Of a stretch of DNA of 64,000 bases, positions 34,102 through 44,076 are shown in pieces. Positions within the stretch are counted from its first letter, which is position 1, and each line of letters opens with the position of its first letter. The stretch is taken from contig NC_013523.1 of the NCBI RefSeq assembly GCF_000024985.1, positions 1 through 64,000 of the forward strand, in the 5' to 3' direction. The notes under the pieces were generated by a model, which saw only the letters and a program-made list of their open reading frames with translations, ran no database searches and was not told the origin of the DNA. This DNA is from Sphaerobacter thermophilus DSM 20745. Its GTDB lineage: Bacteria > Chloroflexota > Chloroflexia > Thermomicrobiales > Thermomicrobiaceae. The position numbers and the translations under genes are program-made.

Positions 34102-35331
34102 CTAGCGGGACGTCCCCGCCGCTGCCCGCAGTGCCTGGTCGAGGTCGGCCAGGATGTCCTCCGGCGCCTCGATCCCGACGGAGATGCGCACCAGTCCATC
34201 CCCGATGCCGTAGGCGGCGCGCTCCTCGGGTGTCAACGCGCGGTGCGACGACATCGCCGGGTAGAGAGCCAGCGAATAGACGTCGCCGAGCGAGGTGGCC
34301 GGGACAATCAGCTCCAGCGCCGACAGGAAGGCGAAGACCTGCTCTCGCCCGCCGTCCTTGATCTCGAAGGAGATCATGCCCCCATAGCCGCGCTCGCCGA
34401 AGAGCCGCCGTGCCGTCGCATGGCTCGGGTGGCTGGTGAGGCCGGGATAGTTGACGTGTGCGACCAGGGGATGCTCGACCAGTGCGCTCGCGATCGCCGC
34501 CGCGTTGGCGCAGTGCCGCTCCATCCGCAGCGGTAGCGTCTTGAGCCCACGCAGCGCCAGCCAGGCCTCGAAGGGGCCGATCGTCGCGCCGGTCGTGCGG
34601 GCGAAGGTTGCCAGGCGCTCCCGTCGCTCCTTGCTCGTCGCCACGATGCCGCCGGTGACATCCCCATGCCCGCCGATGTACTTGGTCAGCGAGTGGATGA
34701 CCAGATCTGCCCCGTCCGCGGCGGGCGCGTAGAGTGTCGGGCAGAAGGTCGCGTCGACCATTACCGTCGCCCCGACACGGTGCGCCATCTCCACCACGGC
34801 CGGCACGTCGGTCACCCGCAGCAGCGGGTTCGAGATCACCTCGCAGACGACGAGGGCCGGGCGCAGTCGCTCGATTGCCGCGCCCACCGCCTCCAGGTCG
34901 AGCATGTCCACGAACTCGACGCGGCAGCCCCACTCGCGTAGCTGCCCGTTCAGCATGGCGTAGGTCGCGCCGTAGAGGTCGCGGGACGCCACGATGGCGT
35001 CGCCCGGCGCGATGCTGGTCATGATCGCCGCATGCAGCGCCCCCATGCCGGAAGCAAAGGCGAAGGCCGTCTCCGTTCCCTCCAGGTCGGCAACGGCGAC
35101 CTCCAGGGCACGGGTCGTCGGGTTCCCATAGCGGGTGTAGACAAAGGCGTCCTCGGCACCGCCGAGGGCCTGGTCCATCACATCCAGATCCTCGTACACG
35201 AACGAGGCGCTCGGGTAGATCGGCGTGGTGACCGGAACGAAGTCCGGGCGTGCCGGACGCTCGCCGGTGTGGACCACGCGGGTTGCGATATCGAGCTTGC
35301 GCGGACCCCGGCTCGGGGATGGCGACTGCAT
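34102..35331 (-). CDS. Cys/Met metabolism PLP-dependent enzyme
   Basis: The 409-residue fold-type I enzyme belongs to the cystathionine gamma-synthase/gamma-lyase/O-acylhomoserine sulfhydrylase group. It has YTRYGNPTTRALEVAVADLE, FASGMGALHAA (cofactor phosphate loop), MVDATFCPTLYAP and the PLP-lysine motif HSLTKYIGGHGD. A Phe-Cys-Pro-Thr stretch replaces the usual N-T-F-A/S-TP. ATG at 35331 follows GGGAGGGAACC. Which of the four family reactions it performs cannot be decided from sequence alone; a gamma-lyase or sulfhydrylase is plausible. Confidence 0.88.
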   Translation of the reverse strand: MQSPSPSRGPRKLDIATRVVHTGERPARPDFVPVTTPIYPSASFVYEDLDVMDQALGGAEDAFVYTRYGNPTTRALEVAVADLEGTETAFAFASGMGALHAAIMTSIAPGDAIVASRDLYGATYAMLNGQLREWGCRVEFVDMLDLEAVGAAIERLRPALVVCEVISNPLLRVTDVPAVVEMAHRVGATVMVDATFCPTLYAPAADGADLVIHSLTKYIGGHGDVTGGIVATSKERRERLATFARTTGATIGPFEAWLALRGLKTLPLRMERHCANAAAIASALVEHPLVAHVNYPGLTSHPSHATARRLFGERGYGGMISFEIKDGGREQVFAFLSALELIVPATSLGDVYSLALYPAMSSHRALTPEERAAYGIGDGLVRISVGIEAPEDILADLDQALRAAAGTSR

Positions 35332-35467
35332 GCTGGTTCCCTCCCGTCCCACGGCTGACGCAACAATGCCGGGCCAACCTCTCCAGCCGCATCCTACCGC
35401 CGCCGGACCCTCTGCGCCACCCGGCTGTCCCGGAGCGCGGGCATCCTTCCCGACCCCTCGTGTGTGG

Positions 35468-35510
35468 CTCCCCTCTCCCAACGTTGGGAAAGGGTTGGGG
35501 GGTGAGAGCC
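35468..35510. repeat. C/G-rich hairpin repeat
   Basis: CTCCCCTCTCCCAACGTTGG plus GAAAGGGTTGGGGGGTGAGA. It lies in the 390-base divergent gap between the PLP enzyme and the 15-residue-repeat protein; apart from the promoter at 35604 nothing else is seen there. Confidence 0.8.
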
Positions 35511-35603
35511 GCGTCCGCTGGGCGCGACTCCCGGTGACGCCCGCGCTCCGTGTGACCTACTATCCCTGCTTCACGGCGAGCGAGGATCTACCGGGCCGTT
35601 TGT

Positions 35604-35633
35604 TTGACACTGGCAGCATGTGGCCCGTACCAT
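35604..35633 (+). promoter_or_regulatory. Sigma-70-type promoter for the repeat-protein pair
   Basis: A perfect -35 TTGACA (35604-35609), an 18-base spacer and -10 TACCAT (35628-35633) lie about 85 bases ahead of ATG 35722. Confidence 0.6.
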
Positions 35634-35721
35634 GGACGCTGCGGGCATGGTGGCGCGGATTTGACGGTGCGCCCCGCTCGCGACTGATGAGCCTGAGGTT
35701 GAGACTGGTGGGGGCTGCGTC

Positions 35722-36237
35722 ATGGCGGAGGGGCCGGAGAGCGGGATCCGGGAGACGGTCTATAAGCAACCGGCGGGAAAGGTGCCGACTCCAGCCACGG
35801 AGGTCAGCGGGACGCGCGTCGGGTCGGTCGAGGCGCAGACGGTCCTGATGAACCGCAGCTCGGCCGATGGCGTGACCGCCGAGCGCGTGAGCATGGAGCA
35901 GTCGGCAGCGCGGGGGATCGACGCGCGCAGCGCGCAGCTCGATCGCTCCGCGGCGATGTCGGTCCGGAGCGAGCGCGCCGTGCTCCAGCGCAGCCAGGTA
36001 ACGCAGGTCTCGGCCGACGACGTGCGGATGGTGCGCAGCCGGGCTGGACTGGTGCGCGCCGAGCGGGCGCATCTGGAAGACGGCTCGCGGGTGCTGGTGC
36101 TGGCGGGCCAGGCGGAAGGTGATGTCCGCCCGACGTTCGACCTGCCCGGCGCAGCGGCTTTCGGTGCGGCCGCGGGCGTGGCGCTCGCGATCGCCGCCGC
36201 GCTGCTGCGGCGGCTGTTCGGGAGGGGGACGCGATGA
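35722..36237 (+). CDS. Membrane-anchored protein with six 15-residue repeats
   Basis: The 171-residue protein has six consecutive 15-residue repeats at residues 37-126, with the consensus x-A-x-x-A/V-x-L/M-x-R/Q-S-x-x-x-x-V/I (for example DARSAQLDRSAAMSV at 67-81). Such regular rungs suggest a beta-solenoid like bactofilins. A C-terminal span (about 141-160) ends in a basic tail. No family is recognised. It overlaps the next gene by four bases (ATGA). Confidence 0.65.
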   Translation: MAEGPESGIRETVYKQPAGKVPTPATEVSGTRVGSVEAQTVLMNRSSADGVTAERVSMEQSAARGIDARSAQLDRSAAMSVRSERAVLQRSQVTQVSADDVRMVRSRAGLVRAERAHLEDGSRVLVLAGQAEGDVRPTFDLPGAAAFGAAAGVALAIAAALLRRLFGRGTR

Positions 36238-36479
36238 TGGGCCTACTCCGCGGAATCCTCAAGTTCGGTGGCGGCGCGCTGCTCGGCGCCGCGGTCGGGG
36301 CGGCAGTCGCCTCGCTGCTGGCGCCGGAGAGCGGACCGGAGCTGCAGGAACGCGTCCGCGAGCGGCTCGAAGAGGCGAAGAAGGCGCGTGCCGAGGCCGA
36401 GGCCGAGACGGAGCGGCAACTGCGCGAGCAGTTCCGCCAGGCGGTGAACGACCCGGACGCGCTCTCCGGCAAGCCGTAG
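36234..36479 (+). CDS. YtxH-like small membrane protein with coiled coil
   Basis: The 81-residue protein has a Gly/Ala-rich membrane segment (FGGGALLGAAVGAAVASLLA) followed by APESGPELQERVRERLEEAK, the typical YtxH transition, and a charged coiled coil. It overlaps the repeat-protein gene, so the two are probably partners at the membrane. YtxH-type proteins are loosely linked to general stress in other bacteria. Confidence 0.75.
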   Translation: MMGLLRGILKFGGGALLGAAVGAAVASLLAPESGPELQERVRERLEEAKKARAEAEAETERQLREQFRQAVNDPDALSGKP

Positions 36480-36571
36480 AGCCCGCGTCGTGCCACCTTC
36501 CGGCCGGCTTTCGTCTCTTCCCTCCCGGTCCGGCGTGGAGCCGGTTCCACGCCGTCGCGCCTGATCGGTGT

Positions 36572-37117
36572 CTACCGCACCGCGTCGTTGGGCTGCTGCT
36601 TCGGCTCCCCCTGTTTCTCGCGTGGGATCGCGGTGATGATCCCGTTGCTCTCCATGTAAGCCTCTTTGACGTCCTCGATCCGCTCCACCCCCTGCGCGCG
36701 CAGTTGTCCCATGATCTCGTCGCGCGTCAGCAACTCGCTGGCGGCGTTCTTTGGGAGCAATCTCCCGTCCTTGATCAGCAGCAGCGGCTGCGGCTCGATC
36801 ACCCGGCGGACACGGGGGAAGCGGTAGGAGACGAAGGACAGTAGCATGCTCCAGCCGACGATTGTCGCGGCCAGCACCAGTGCGTCCGGGACGGCGGTGT
36901 ACTCACCCGCCATACCGTTCTGTACCGCGTCGGCAATCAGCACGACGACCAGCAGGTCGGTGAGCCGGATTCCGGCGGCTTCACGCTTCAGCAGGAACCG
37001 GAGCCCGAAGAAGAGCACTAAATAGATGACGCTGCCCCGCACGACGATCTCCAGGATCGGCGTCGAGGGCAGGAAGATCGCGCCCCAGTCAGCGGGCAAC
37101 CAGAATGAGAGCAGCAT
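36572..37117 (-). CDS. DUF421 (YetF-like) membrane protein
   Basis: The 181-residue product has three N-terminal membrane helices (VIYLVLFFGLRFLL, LLVVVLIADAVQNGMAG, LVLAATIVGWSMLLSFVSYR) and a cytoplasmic domain with PQPLLLIKDGRLLPKNAAS and LRAQGVERIEDVKEAYMESN, the recognisable DUF421 blocks. Function is poorly known. It stands alone on the minus strand, convergent with the YtxH-like gene. Confidence 0.88.
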   Translation of the reverse strand: MLLSFWLPADWGAIFLPSTPILEIVVRGSVIYLVLFFGLRFLLKREAAGIRLTDLLVVVLIADAVQNGMAGEYTAVPDALVLAATIVGWSMLLSFVSYRFPRVRRVIEPQPLLLIKDGRLLPKNAASELLTRDEIMGQLRAQGVERIEDVKEAYMESNGIITAIPREKQGEPKQQPNDAVR

Positions 37118-39912: not shown

Positions 39913-40113
39913 CCCCAGCCAGATCTCTTCCCCACCCCGCCGTTGTGCACCTGCACAAACCCGCTTCTCCAGAACCCAAAGCGGCTTGGGCAGATGCCCG
40001 ATGAAGCCTGACTGGCAAACTCGTTAGCCTGGGAAAAGGAAATAGCCCCCGCGCATTCAAGTGCGCCGGCGCGCCTATGGGCTCGGCGTGTGCGAGCGAT
40101 CGGGAGCAAACGC

Positions 40114-40770
40114 ATGATCGATGATGACGTGCAGGTCGCAGCGTGGGCTCCGTCGACCAACGGCGGGCCGTACGGGGCGGTGCTCGCCCACGCGCTGGCC
40201 GGGCGCAGACGCGACCTGGCGGCGGCACTGACCCGGTTGGAGTCACAGAGCGCCCGCCTCGCCGCCGTGGCGGACATGCTCATCGCGACGCTGCGAGCCG
40301 GGCGCACGGTGCTGGTCGCCGGGAACGGCGGCAGCGCGGCCGGGGCCCAGCACTTCGCGGCCGAACTGGTCGGGCGCTTCCGGCGCGAGCGGGAGCCGTA
40401 TCCCGTCGTGGCGCTGTGTACCGACAGCGCCGTCGTGACGGCGGTCGCCAACGACTACGGCTACGAGCAGGTCTTTGCCCGGCAGGTGGCGGCCTTCGGC
40501 CGGGCGGGCGATCTCCTGGTCGTGATCAGCACGAGCGGGGAGTCGGAGAACCTGGTGCGGGCGGCCGTGACCGCGCGCCGGCGCGGTCTCACCGTGCTCG
40601 CCGTCACCGGCGAGCGCGACAGCCGGCTGGCCGCGCTGGCTGACCTCGCGGTGCGGGTCCCCACCGACGACACCGCTCTCGTGCAGGAACTGCACCTGAT
40701 CGTCACCCACGTCCTCTGTGATCTGGTCGAGGCTGAACTGGCGATCCGGGAAGGAGCCGGTGGCCCATGA
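40114..40770 (+). CDS. gmhA: Sedoheptulose-7-phosphate isomerase (GmhA-like SIS protein)
   Basis: GmhA turns sedoheptulose 7-phosphate into D-glycero-D-manno-heptose 7-phosphate, the first step to ADP-heptose. The 218-residue protein has the SIS core: [20 protein letters not shown], the lower loop VVISTSGESENLV, and a C-terminal VQELHLIVTHVLCDLVE with Glu and His at catalytic positions. GGGAGC lies six bases before ATG 40114; GTG 40090 is an alternative. It is the first gene of an overlapping operon with gmhB and hldE, which supports the assignment. Confidence 0.88.
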   Translation: MIDDDVQVAAWAPSTNGGPYGAVLAHALAGRRRDLAAALTRLESQSARLAAVADMLIATLRAGRTVLVAGNGGSAAGAQHFAAELVGRFRREREPYPVVALCTDSAVVTAVANDYGYEQVFARQVAAFGRAGDLLVVISTSGESENLVRAAVTARRRGLTVLAVTGERDSRLAALADLAVRVPTDDTALVQELHLIVTHVLCDLVEAELAIREGAGGP

Positions 40771-41411
40771 CCGGCCCGCGTCGCGCGATCTTCCTCGACC
40801 GGGACGGCACCCTGGTCCACCGGCGCCACTACCCCTCCCGGCCCGAGCACCTGCGCCTCTACGAGGGGATCGGCCCGGAGTTGCGCCGGTTGCAGGCGGC
40901 CGGCTTCCGGCTGGTGGTGGTGACGAACCAGTCCGGGATCGCCCGCGGCTACTTTACCGAGGAGGACCTGCACCGGATGCACGAGCACCTGGCGGCCAGC
41001 CTGGACCGCTCCGGGGTGCGGCTCGACGCGATCTACTACTGCCCGCACCACCCGGACGGGGCGATTCCCGAGCTTGCCCGGCGCTGCGACTGCCGCAAGC
41101 CCGCCCCCGGGATGCTGTGGCGCGCGGTGCACGATCTGGGCGTCGACCCGGCGCGCTCCTGGCTCGTTGGCGACGTCCTGGACGACGTGGAGGCGGGCCG
41201 CCGCGCCGGGTGCCGCACCGTCCTCGTCGATCTCGCCACCGAGTCGCCGCCGGTCACGGCGCGGCGCCGGCCGGACTTCGTCGCCCGCGACACGCCGCAC
41301 GCGCTGCGGATCATCAGTGCGGTCGAGGGCCTGGCGGCGGCACCGGAGCTGGACTACCGGCCGCCGGGCTGGCCGGCGGCCAGCCTGAGCGGCGCGGGAG
41401 GAGACCGGTGA
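40767..41411 (+). CDS. gmhB: D-glycero-D-manno-heptose 1,7-bisphosphate phosphatase (GmhB-like)
   Basis: The 214-residue HAD phosphatase removes the C7 phosphate of heptose bisphosphate. It has the nucleophile motif FLDRDGTLV, VVTNQSGIARGYF, zinc-loop cysteines and histidines in CPHHPDG and RCDCRKPAPGML, and WLVGDVLDDVEAG. The zinc loop is diagnostic for the GmhB/HisB-N group. It overlaps gmhA by four bases and hldE by one. Confidence 0.92.
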   Translation: MTGPRRAIFLDRDGTLVHRRHYPSRPEHLRLYEGIGPELRRLQAAGFRLVVVTNQSGIARGYFTEEDLHRMHEHLAASLDRSGVRLDAIYYCPHHPDGAIPELARRCDCRKPAPGMLWRAVHDLGVDPARSWLVGDVLDDVEAGRRAGCRTVLVDLATESPPVTARRRPDFVARDTPHALRIISAVEGLAAAPELDYRPPGWPAASLSGAGGDR

Positions 41412-42934
41412 TGGTGCGCGCAGTCGAGGTGGTGCGGCGCTTCCGGCGCCTGCGGGCATTGGTCATCGGCGACGCCATGCTCGATAGCTACCTGGAGGGG
41501 ACCGCCGCGCGGCTCTGCACCGAGGGGCCGGTGCCGGTGGTGCGCAAGACGGCCGAGGAGCGCGTGCCCGGGGGCGCCGCCAACACGGCCGCCAACCTGC
41601 GCGCCCTAGGGGCCGAGGTCGTCTTCCTGGGGCTGGTGGGCGAGGATGTGCCGGGCGATCTACTGCGGGCGGCGCTGGCCGCGCGCGGCGTCGACGACCG
41701 TTGGCTGGTGGCCGACCCGGCGGTCAGCACGCTCCACAAGCTGCGCATCCTGGCTGACGGGCAGTACGTGGTCCGCTTCGACGAGGGAGACTCCCGCGCC
41801 GCCTCGCCCGCGGCCCACGCCCGGCTGCTGGAGCATCTGGAACACGCCGTCCCCACCTGCGACGTGGTGGTCGTCTCCGACTACGCCTACGGAGCCGTCG
41901 CCGACGACCTCATCGCCCAGTTGCGGACGCTGCGTGCCGCGCGGCACTGCCCGCTGGTGGTCGACTCCAAGGCGCTGCACCGCTTCCATGCTGCCGGGGC
42001 GACGGTTGTCACGCCCAACTACCTGGAGGCACGTCTGGCCGTTGCGCCGGGGGCGGAGGAGCCGGGCCCGCTCGACCTGGCGGAGGTCAAGCGGATCGGC
42101 CGCGGCCTGCTGGAGCAGGTCGACGCGGCCTATGCGGCGATCACCCTGGGCGCCGACGGTGTGTTCCTGCTCGGGCGCGACGGGGCCGGCCGGCACCTTC
42201 CGGTTCACCCGCCCGCGCAGGCCAGCGACATCGGCGCCGGCGACACGTTCGCCGCCGCGCTCGGGCTCGCGCTCGCGGCCGGGGCTGATGTAGTGGAGGC
42301 CAGCCGGATCGGCATCGACGCCGCCGGGATCGCCGTTGCCTGCCAGCGGACCGCCGCCGTGCCCTACCAGGATCTCCTGCGCCGCGTCAGCCTGTGCGAC
42401 CTGGACGGGCGGCCCGCCAGTATGGCCGCGGCTCGCCGTGACGTCGTCGCCCGGCTCGACGTTGCCCGACTCGCGGGCAGGACCATCGTCTTCACCAACG
42501 GCGTCTTCGACATCCTCCACGCCGGGCACGTCGAGTTCCTGCGCCGTGCCAGGGCACTCGGCGACCTCCTCATCGTCGGGGTGAACAGCGACCGCTCTGC
42601 CCGGCGGCTCAAGGGGGCGGGCCGGCCGATCAACAGCGAGCGCGACCGGCTGGCGCTGGTGGCCGCGCTCGACGCGGTGGACGAGGCGCTGCTGTTCGAC
42701 GAGGCGACCCCGGCCGAGCTGATCCGCGCGCTGCGCCCGCACATCCACGCCAAGGGAGGCGACTACTCCGACGTTCGGCTGCCCGAGGCCGAGGCGGTCC
42801 GTGCCGTCGGCGGACGGGTGGTGATCCTGCCGCTCGTCAGCCGTTTGAGCACCAGTGGCGTGATCGACCGCATCGTGGCGCTGGCCGGGACCGCCGACTC
42901 TGCCGGGATTGGCACGAACGGAGCGGAGCCGTGA
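41411..42934 (+). CDS. hldE: Bifunctional heptose 7-phosphate kinase / heptose 1-phosphate adenylyltransferase
   Basis: The 507-residue protein fuses a PfkB-type kinase (about 1-325, GGAANTAANLRALGAEV and GAGDTFAAALGLAL) to a cytidylyltransferase-like adenylyltransferase (about 350-490, FTNGVFDILHAGHVEFLRRA with HAGH nucleotide site, and KGGDYSDVRLPEAEAV). It phosphorylates heptose 7-phosphate at C1 and, after GmhB, makes ADP-D-glycero-beta-D-manno-heptose. ATG at 41411 shares its A with the gmhB stop. No HldD epimerase is recognised in the operon. Confidence 0.94.
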   Translation: MVRAVEVVRRFRRLRALVIGDAMLDSYLEGTAARLCTEGPVPVVRKTAEERVPGGAANTAANLRALGAEVVFLGLVGEDVPGDLLRAALAARGVDDRWLVADPAVSTLHKLRILADGQYVVRFDEGDSRAASPAAHARLLEHLEHAVPTCDVVVVSDYAYGAVADDLIAQLRTLRAARHCPLVVDSKALHRFHAAGATVVTPNYLEARLAVAPGAEEPGPLDLAEVKRIGRGLLEQVDAAYAAITLGADGVFLLGRDGAGRHLPVHPPAQASDIGAGDTFAAALGLALAAGADVVEASRIGIDAAGIAVACQRTAAVPYQDLLRRVSLCDLDGRPASMAAARRDVVARLDVARLAGRTIVFTNGVFDILHAGHVEFLRRARALGDLLIVGVNSDRSARRLKGAGRPINSERDRLALVAALDAVDEALLFDEATPAELIRALRPHIHAKGGDYSDVRLPEAEAVRAVGGRVVILPLVSRLSTSGVIDRIVALAGTADSAGIGTNGAEP

Positions 42935-44076
42935 GCCCGCTGGACGCCCGCTGGGCCGCCGCGCGCCGGGTGCTGGCCATCCGGCTGGACAACCTGGGCG
43001 ACGTCCTGCTGACGACCCCGGCGATCCACGCCATCCGCGCGTCGCTGCCTGAGGCGGAGATCACGCTGCTGGCCGGACCGGTCGGGGCCCAGGCAGGGCG
43101 GCTGAACCCCGACCTGGACGACGTCGTCGTCTACCAGGCGCCCTGGATGGACCCCTGGTCCCGCCTGCCGCACGACAGCCGGCGCGAGCAGCACATGATC
43201 GCGCGGCTCAAGGCCCGCCGGTTCGATGGCGCGATCATCTTCACCTCGTTCCGCCAAAGCCCCCTGCCCGCGGCGTACCTCTGCTACCTGGCCGACATCC
43301 CGCTGCGCGTCGCCGTCTCGATCGACGGCCCCGGCTCGCTCCTCACCACGCGCCACAAGCACCCGGAGCGGATGATGCACGAGGTGGAGCGTGGTCTGGA
43401 CCTCGTCGGCGCCATCGGCATGTACACCGCCGAGCGCGACCTCGTGCTCTCGGTCCCCGACAGCGCCCGCGCGGCCGTCGCCGACCGGCTGGCGGACATT
43501 GGCGCGCTGGGCGACCGCCCGCTCGTCGTGCTCCACCCCGGCTGCTCGATGCCGGCCCGGACCTACTCCTGGGAGCAGTACGCCGAGGTGACCGCATTGC
43601 TGATCGGGCGCCTAGGCGCCACCGTGGCGCTGACCGGCGTTGCCGAGGAGCGGCCGCTGGTCGAGCGTATCCGGGCCCGCCTGCGCCCCGCGCTGCGCGA
43701 GCGGGCGCTGCCGCTGGCGGGGGATCTCGACTTCCCCGGCCTCTGCGCCCTGATCGCCGCGGCGGACCTGACGATCACCAACAACACCGGGCCGATGCAC
43801 GTCTCGGCCGCGGTCAAGACGCCGGTGGTCGCCCTCTTCGCACTGACCAACCCGCCGGAGCAGTGGGGGCCGTGGCGCGTGCCGCACCGGCTGCTCTTCT
43901 ACGACGTTCCCTGCCGCATCTGCTACAGCCGAGTCTGCCCGTATGGGCACGAGTGCCTGCGCCTGGTCCCACCGGCCATGGTGCTCGATGCCGCGCGCGA
44001 CCTCCTGTCCGGGGCGGAGCCCGCGGCGACCAATGGGGCGACCGCCTCGGTCGCACAGGGTGGGAAGCGGCCATGA
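42931..44076 (+). CDS. Glycosyltransferase family 9 (heptosyltransferase-like) 1
   Basis: The 381-residue GT-B enzyme starts GTG at 42931, overlapping hldE (GTGA). It has VLAIRLDNLGDVLLTTPAIH, LVVLHPGCSMPARTYSWEQY and ITNNTGPMHVSAAVKTPVVA, the GT9 nucleotide-sugar site. A C-terminal Cys cluster (CRICYSRVCPYGHEC) recurs in all three GT9 proteins here. It probably transfers heptose from ADP-heptose to a cell-surface acceptor; acceptor unknown. Confidence 0.9.
   Translation: MSPLDARWAAARRVLAIRLDNLGDVLLTTPAIHAIRASLPEAEITLLAGPVGAQAGRLNPDLDDVVVYQAPWMDPWSRLPHDSRREQHMIARLKARRFDGAIIFTSFRQSPLPAAYLCYLADIPLRVAVSIDGPGSLLTTRHKHPERMMHEVERGLDLVGAIGMYTAERDLVLSVPDSARAAVADRLADIGALGDRPLVVLHPGCSMPARTYSWEQYAEVTALLIGRLGATVALTGVAEERPLVERIRARLRPALRERALPLAGDLDFPGLCALIAAADLTITNNTGPMHVSAAVKTPVVALFALTNPPEQWGPWRVPHRLLFYDVPCRICYSRVCPYGHECLRLVPPAMVLDAARDLLSGAEPAATNGATASVAQGGKRP

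Follow-up and report, generated by a model that had tools for sequence, protein, structure and literature searches.

What does the gene at positions 35722-36237 (+ strand) of the window encode: an accident of composition, a relative of a known solenoid, or a membrane protein family of its own? The window is the whole 64,000-nucleotide stretch that we analyzed, at the beginning of contig C1 of Sphaerobacter thermophilus, whose genome comprises 3,993,764 bases in two contigs; the available part of PMC3035262 places strain S 6022T in the phylum Chloroflexi. The gene runs from ATG to stop and specifies 171 residues with a tail anchor, and an earlier note, made from the letters alone, had read residues 37-126 as six exact, gap-free 15-residue repeats, each probably one rung of a beta-solenoid. 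Repeat analysis, structural modeling and the alignment of relatives all place six ungapped 15-residue units there (35830-36099, + strand). In a BLOSUM62 autocorrelation over residues 31-130, z is 6.6 at lag 15 and 6.5 at lag 30, and none of 5000 shuffles reached either the lag-15 value or the maximum over lags 2-40, so the six gap-free units stand as described. They are exact in length, but not in sequence, where the units are degenerate copies of one another. In an alignment of 30 relatives, the region contains 11 gaps in 2700 cells. In a GC-rich genome where open frames often overlap, a compositional or low-complexity periodicity could in principle arise in a spurious reading frame, but the shuffles, the near-absence of gaps, and the conservation of both a promoter-like site and a gene pair (below) leave that explanation with next to no probability.

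The repeat follows a simple code. Unit positions 2, 5, 7, 10, 12 and 15 hold small or aliphatic residues in 82-99% of cases across the 30 relatives, against at most 68% at each of the other nine. Since these inward positions make up two residue classes modulo five, each rung can be read as three sides of five residues; by arithmetic, 10 of the 5005 possible choices of six positions from 15 form two such classes. Residues 22-36 (35785-35829, + strand) may form one more rung, which we number 0: the model has strands at residues 22-29 and 32-37, and A25 is present in 29 of 30 relatives. At the other end, residues 127-140 (36100-36141, + strand) comprise the end of the last strand, modeled at 123-133, and a linker to the membrane helix, with pLDDT below 50 at residues 139-144. 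Outward-facing residues are more variable than the core (mean entropy 1.88 versus 1.32 bits), with four exceptions: when the 30 closest relatives are filtered at 80% identity to 25 rows, R55 and S70 are kept in all 25 and Q72 and R102 in 24. R55 and S70 sit at position 4 of the unit, Q72 and R102 at position 6, which suggests that they lie on one face, and these outward, nearly invariant residues make the strongest candidate binding face, in the close branch of the family only.

Far from being an orphan, the protein belongs to a large family found across the Chloroflexota. A search with the single protein (E 0.01) finds it in 52 of 101 related genomes, and a profile search (E 0.001) of 400 genomes sampled evenly across the phylum, a set that overlaps with the first, detects relatives in 91; in a scan of genome contigs, the matches listed were to a Sphaerobacter MAG at 96% identity. 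We measured periods between 8 and 30 in 101 focal proteins, 25 near and 76 distant, which were chosen with a near-member profile and thus carry some selection for a 15-residue register: the strongest period is 15 in 84, 30 in 12 and 16 in 5, so that 15 or its double leads in 96 of 101, and the lag-15 z exceeds 3 in 99. One focal open frame (L187) has a clear period of 16 instead of 15 (lag-16 z 7.6, lag-15 z -0.4). Judged by eye, distant members keep the plan: after an N-terminus that varies come several rungs of 15 residues, then a terminal stretch of the form LLLAxxVxGxVxxxxDxRxAxxxGxxxG, the membrane helix and arginines. Four members of family f13 (L117, L119, L127 and L147), also judged by eye, carry a C-terminal extension and a second hydrophobic segment after the usual helix.

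The lack of any described family with this layout, also claimed from the letters alone, is borne out for Pfam, NCBIfam and PHROGs, none of which gave a significant match to the members scanned. Even at E 10, neither Pfam nor NCBIfam yields a match to the window protein; 30 near members searched against Pfam and 29 mixed members searched against NCBIfam and Pfam gave weak matches only, never in more than three members per scan (best E 0.0048); against Pfam, nine distant members reached E 0.027 at best, and against PHROGs, five proteins reached no better than E 0.064. The pentapeptide Pfam profile matches neither the window protein at E ≤10 nor the 30 near, 29 mixed and nine distant members at E ≤1, and the DUF883 Pfam profile matches neither the window protein nor the 30 near and 29 mixed members. 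A tblastn search with the window protein found no match in phage and plasmid sequences. Searched against the sequences of the PDB, profile A1 gave no match, and profile A4 gave ten weak hits, the best a dihydrolipoamide dehydrogenase at E 0.003, that we take to be chance. A viral structure library returned nothing at E 0.001, its best match (E 1.2e-3, TM-score 0.29) being unconvincing, and no description of the family appears among the titles and abstract openings listed in searches of open-licence papers. The Knotted Solenoid fold, which we considered as one exclusive to a single bacterial group, stands under a Brevundimonas heading in the available part of PMC13123833, where Chloroflexota go unmentioned, and we rejected it as a description of this family. 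As far as sequence comparison can tell, the family is absent from the curated libraries searched.

Predicted structures give the repeat a shape. AlphaFold models the window protein at pLDDT 95-98 over residues 31-110 and 91 over residues 111-120, and a distant member that is 24% identical to it (L112) adopts the same architecture, at pLDDT 97-98 over residues 31-120; these two confident models support the suggestion of one beta-solenoid rung per unit. Against the PDB, Foldseek finds no match at E 0.001 for either model, while a second aligner ranks the bactofilin 6rib_A first for both, at Z 11.0 and an rmsd of 1.6 Å over 91 residues for the window protein, and Z 12.2 and 1.7 Å over 90 residues for the second member. 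The match list also contains gamma-carbonic anhydrases, LpxA, LpxD, GlmU and ice-binding proteins, which we take to be left-handed helices, and which superpose at 8.5-13.3 Å only, with Z-scores close behind that of bactofilin. Tapirin, an adhesin, SepA and ChiW, which we take to be right-handed, superpose at 2.0-2.5 Å, the first on the window protein and the other three on the second member, although ChiW lies at 8.7 Å from the window protein. From these superpositions, we infer that the predicted solenoid is right-handed. Since beta-helices other than bactofilin also superpose at 2.0-2.5 Å, and since Foldseek finds nothing, the likeness to bactofilin may be a generic one.

Two further comparisons help to define the fold. 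The spruce budworm antifreeze protein 1m8n is listed at Z 10.0 and 11.0, but at an rmsd of about 10 Å both times; we take this insect protein to have a 15-residue coil, as the solenoid protein does, and to be left-handed. Pentapeptide repeat proteins place two inward residues in every five, as the solenoid protein does, and have four sides and 20 residues per turn. The solenoid protein differs from them in its three sides and 15 residues per turn and in having no Pfam match. No pentapeptide-repeat structure is named among the matches listed for the two aligners, an absence that excludes nothing.

Bactofilins polymerize without nucleotide into non-polar filaments, and those represented by PF04519, 6rib and 2n3d share with the predicted solenoid a three-sided, right-handed beta-helix and an association with membranes. 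S. thermophilus has canonical bactofilins of its own: a PF04519 search of its genome finds two adjacent matches at C1:1910635-1911398, and the solenoid protein is not among them. Two neighboring bactofilin matches occur in many related genomes as well. PF04519 matches none of the members scanned (the window protein, 30 near, 29 mixed and nine distant members), and profile-profile comparison with 16 bactofilins of relatives gives a probability of 0.3%, or 0.6% with a wider profile. Whereas the solenoid family keeps strict 15-residue rungs, these 16 bactofilins have no 15-residue period (lag-15 z -1.7 to 0.0), and whereas its membrane helix is C-terminal, bactofilins use an N-terminal peptide or helix; according to the part of PMC12448750 available to us, bactofilin membrane helices are N-terminal and rare, at about 3.2%. 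A match to bactofilin or another solenoid family, the outcome that the earlier note had named as telling against its reading, therefore exists in predicted fold, where 6rib_A comes first, and is lacking in sequence. The models thus describe a protein that appears bactofilin-like in shape, with membership of the bactofilin family not supported.

The solenoid is followed by a membrane helix at residues 141-167 (36142-36222, + strand), marked by the small-residue motif G148-A-A-A-G152. The model, hydropathy and conservation all point to it: model confidence is low (pLDDT blocks 52, 76 and 68), the best 19-residue mean hydropathy is 2.21, G148 and G152 are conserved in most of 30 relatives, and the corresponding helix of L112, at residues 135-160, is better defined. 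A positively charged tail at residues 163-171 (36208-36234, + strand) carries a net charge of +4 after the hydrophobic core, and in 100 of 101 members the final 12 residues have a positive net charge. Across the 30 relatives, hydrophobicity peaks near the C-terminus, the best window being followed by a median of 7 residues (two relatives, L018 and L028, end at contig ends), and no signal or membrane segment appears at the N-terminus, where 19-residue windows that begin within residues 1-15 have a mean of 0.85 at most, with start codons chosen by the analyst. Read from these sequences, the protein is C-tail-anchored, with a single C-terminal membrane segment and no signal peptide.

Charge bears on the side of the membrane that the solenoid faces. 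The median charge in the 30 relatives is +3 after the helix and 0 before it, and by the positive-inside rule alone the arginine tail would be cytoplasmic and the solenoid outside. A comparable plan exists in ElaB and YqjD, whose tail anchors are described in the available part of PMC5525287 as Gly-rich, with a positive patch ending in di-arginine, and the N-terminus of YqjD associates with the 30S ribosomal subunit (PMC10502375, available part). These DUF883 proteins share the Gly-rich C-terminal membrane helix and positive tail, but differ from the solenoid protein in its predicted beta-helical soluble part and its lack of a DUF883 Pfam match.

The gene is probably transcribed together with its downstream neighbor. 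A promoter-like site, TTGACA-18 nt-TACCAT (35604-35633, + strand), matches at 10 of 12 positions, and no second one turned up in 35330-36640, where shuffled sequence gave a mean of 0.0 sites (sd 0.2). Two further genomes of the genus (L003 and L004) carry the same two hexamers, three Sphaerobacter genomes in all, though much of the flanking sequence differs. Downstream, a gene for an 81-residue YtxH-domain membrane protein (36234-36479, + strand) begins with a start that overlaps the solenoid stop by 4 bases, and its product passes the Pfam PF12732 cut-off at 45.5 bits against 37.5; it is this neighbor, and not the solenoid protein itself, that belongs to the YtxH-like proteins. The next genes beyond the pair, for a Cys/Met-metabolism enzyme and a DUF421 protein, are both on the other strand, so the transcription unit probably consists of just the solenoid and YtxH genes. 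Of 51 related genomes in which the solenoid search gives a hit, 46 have a YtxH match next to it; among the exceptions, three (G019, G021 and G053) have their solenoid match at the end of a contig, and two (G063 and G092) have no adjacent YtxH. The earlier suggestions of a good promoter and of coupling to a YtxH-like membrane protein are thus both upheld.

Most YtxH partners share a C-terminal motif, FRxxVxDPxAL, which we considered as a solenoid-docking peptide and rejected, since the motif or variants of it occur in YtxH proteins of relatives with no solenoid hit (G023 and G024; partly G031) and it is thus not tied to the solenoid. YtxH proteins of the same type do persist in some genomes that lack a solenoid hit, and at nine such loci a search for a hidden solenoid found no open frame of at least 70 residues on the YtxH strand with a strong 15-residue period. 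We likewise rejected a tie between the candidate binding face and YtxH: among four more divergent YtxH-linked members, L197 keeps R55, S70, Q72 and R102, but L198, L199 and L200 each change three of them, which is why we claim the face for the close branch only.

In distant branches, the solenoid gene keeps other company. A gene for ribosomal protein bL25 (general stress protein Ctc) lies 3' on the same strand at 18 of 76 distant loci, in families f19, f73, f77, f85 and f88 (for example L121:7393-8136 and L113:7243-7914), and starts 7-202 bases past the solenoid stop in the 16 of these loci where the distance can be measured; NCBIfam names two representatives bL25, and the bL25 gene of S. thermophilus itself is sited elsewhere, at C1:2304322. 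At another count of 18 of 76, a LarC-like gene (nickel pincer cofactor) lies 5' on the same strand (for example L129:5492-7306), within 136 bases of the solenoid frame or overlapping it in 16 and at 725-933 bases in two; NCBIfam names one LarC and one LarB representative. At the LarC loci, a LarB-like gene lies further upstream in 14 and an enolase-like gene, recognized by eye, in 13. At 15 loci of family f33, a conserved gene cluster lies downstream, one representative of which is PseC-like, below the NCBIfam cut-off. The bL25 and LarC counts show that YtxH is no universal partner and is linked in one branch only, and because YtxH, bL25, LarC/LarB and sugar-nucleotide genes each neighbor a different branch, no single function follows from gene order.

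Within the reach of computation, the anatomy of this widespread family, a tail-anchored beta-helix with strict 15-residue rungs, is firm. For the mechanism we propose, as a reading that we hold to be evenly poised between right and wrong, that the protein is a C-tail-anchored, bactofilin-like beta-helix that acts from the cytoplasmic side of the membrane as a scaffold or docking platform, in complex with its YtxH partner. Its soluble part would be a right-handed, three-sided beta-helix with six or seven rungs, each exactly 15 residues long; since no signal peptide is seen, this domain would most likely be cytoplasmic and stand against the inside of the cell membrane, held there by one Gly/Ala-rich membrane helix whose end is rich in arginine. 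The YtxH gene, which overlaps the solenoid gene and is probably coupled to it in translation, would add a second helix rich in small residues to the same membrane, and the two proteins would probably form one complex. By analogy with bactofilins, the rigid beta-helix would most likely serve as a scaffold or docking platform. More tentatively, and with a somewhat less than even chance, the family may constitute an undescribed class of membrane-anchored beta-helix scaffolds in the Chloroflexota, with the three-times-five code as its minimal plan, that evolved independently of bactofilin and serves beside it as a second nucleotide-free scaffold under the cell membrane, with branch-specific partners such as YtxH.

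A closer relationship to bactofilin, in which the protein would be an extremely diverged but true homolog that forms filaments and uses a C-terminal membrane helix, draws on the first rank of 6rib_A for both members and on the existence of bactofilins with membrane helices, N-terminal ones in the available part of PMC12448750; we consider it improbable, given that PF04519 finds two other genes and none of the members scanned, that profile-profile probabilities are so low, and that the 16 bactofilins of relatives lack the period. To a solenoid exposed outside the cell (N-out, C-in), where it would act at the surface or in association with envelope glycans, we assign a similarly small probability: the charge bias around the helix and the f33 cluster with its PseC-like representative speak for it, but the protein has no signal peptide or second membrane segment to export about 140 folded residues, and the available parts of PMC5525287 and PMC10502375 describe tail anchors that combine terminal arginines with an N-terminus that binds ribosomes. 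The same tail-anchor plan (PMC5525287, in part), together with the bL25 gene at 18 of 76 distant loci in five families, would by analogy with YqjD and ElaB fit a ribosome-stress factor or a protein that tethers ribosomes to the membrane. This we think a shade less probable still, as bL25 lies elsewhere in S. thermophilus, LarC takes its place at equally many distant loci, and no ribosome-binding feature was identified.

If the proposed membrane-face scaffold is real, it would represent a conserved membrane-bound family, missing from the curated libraries searched, in a phylum whose envelope is poorly understood. Its strict three-times-five code would offer a simple natural template for the study and design of right-handed beta-helices, and the family would make it possible to test whether scaffolds like bactofilin evolved on more than one occasion. 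Elsewhere in the window, positions 40090-44073 hold a run of ADP-heptose pathway genes (GmhA-, GmhB- and HldE-like) and then a heptosyltransferase-like gene, mostly below equivalog cut-offs. To our knowledge, Chloroflexota are usually described as lacking lipopolysaccharide, and this run is worth a look.
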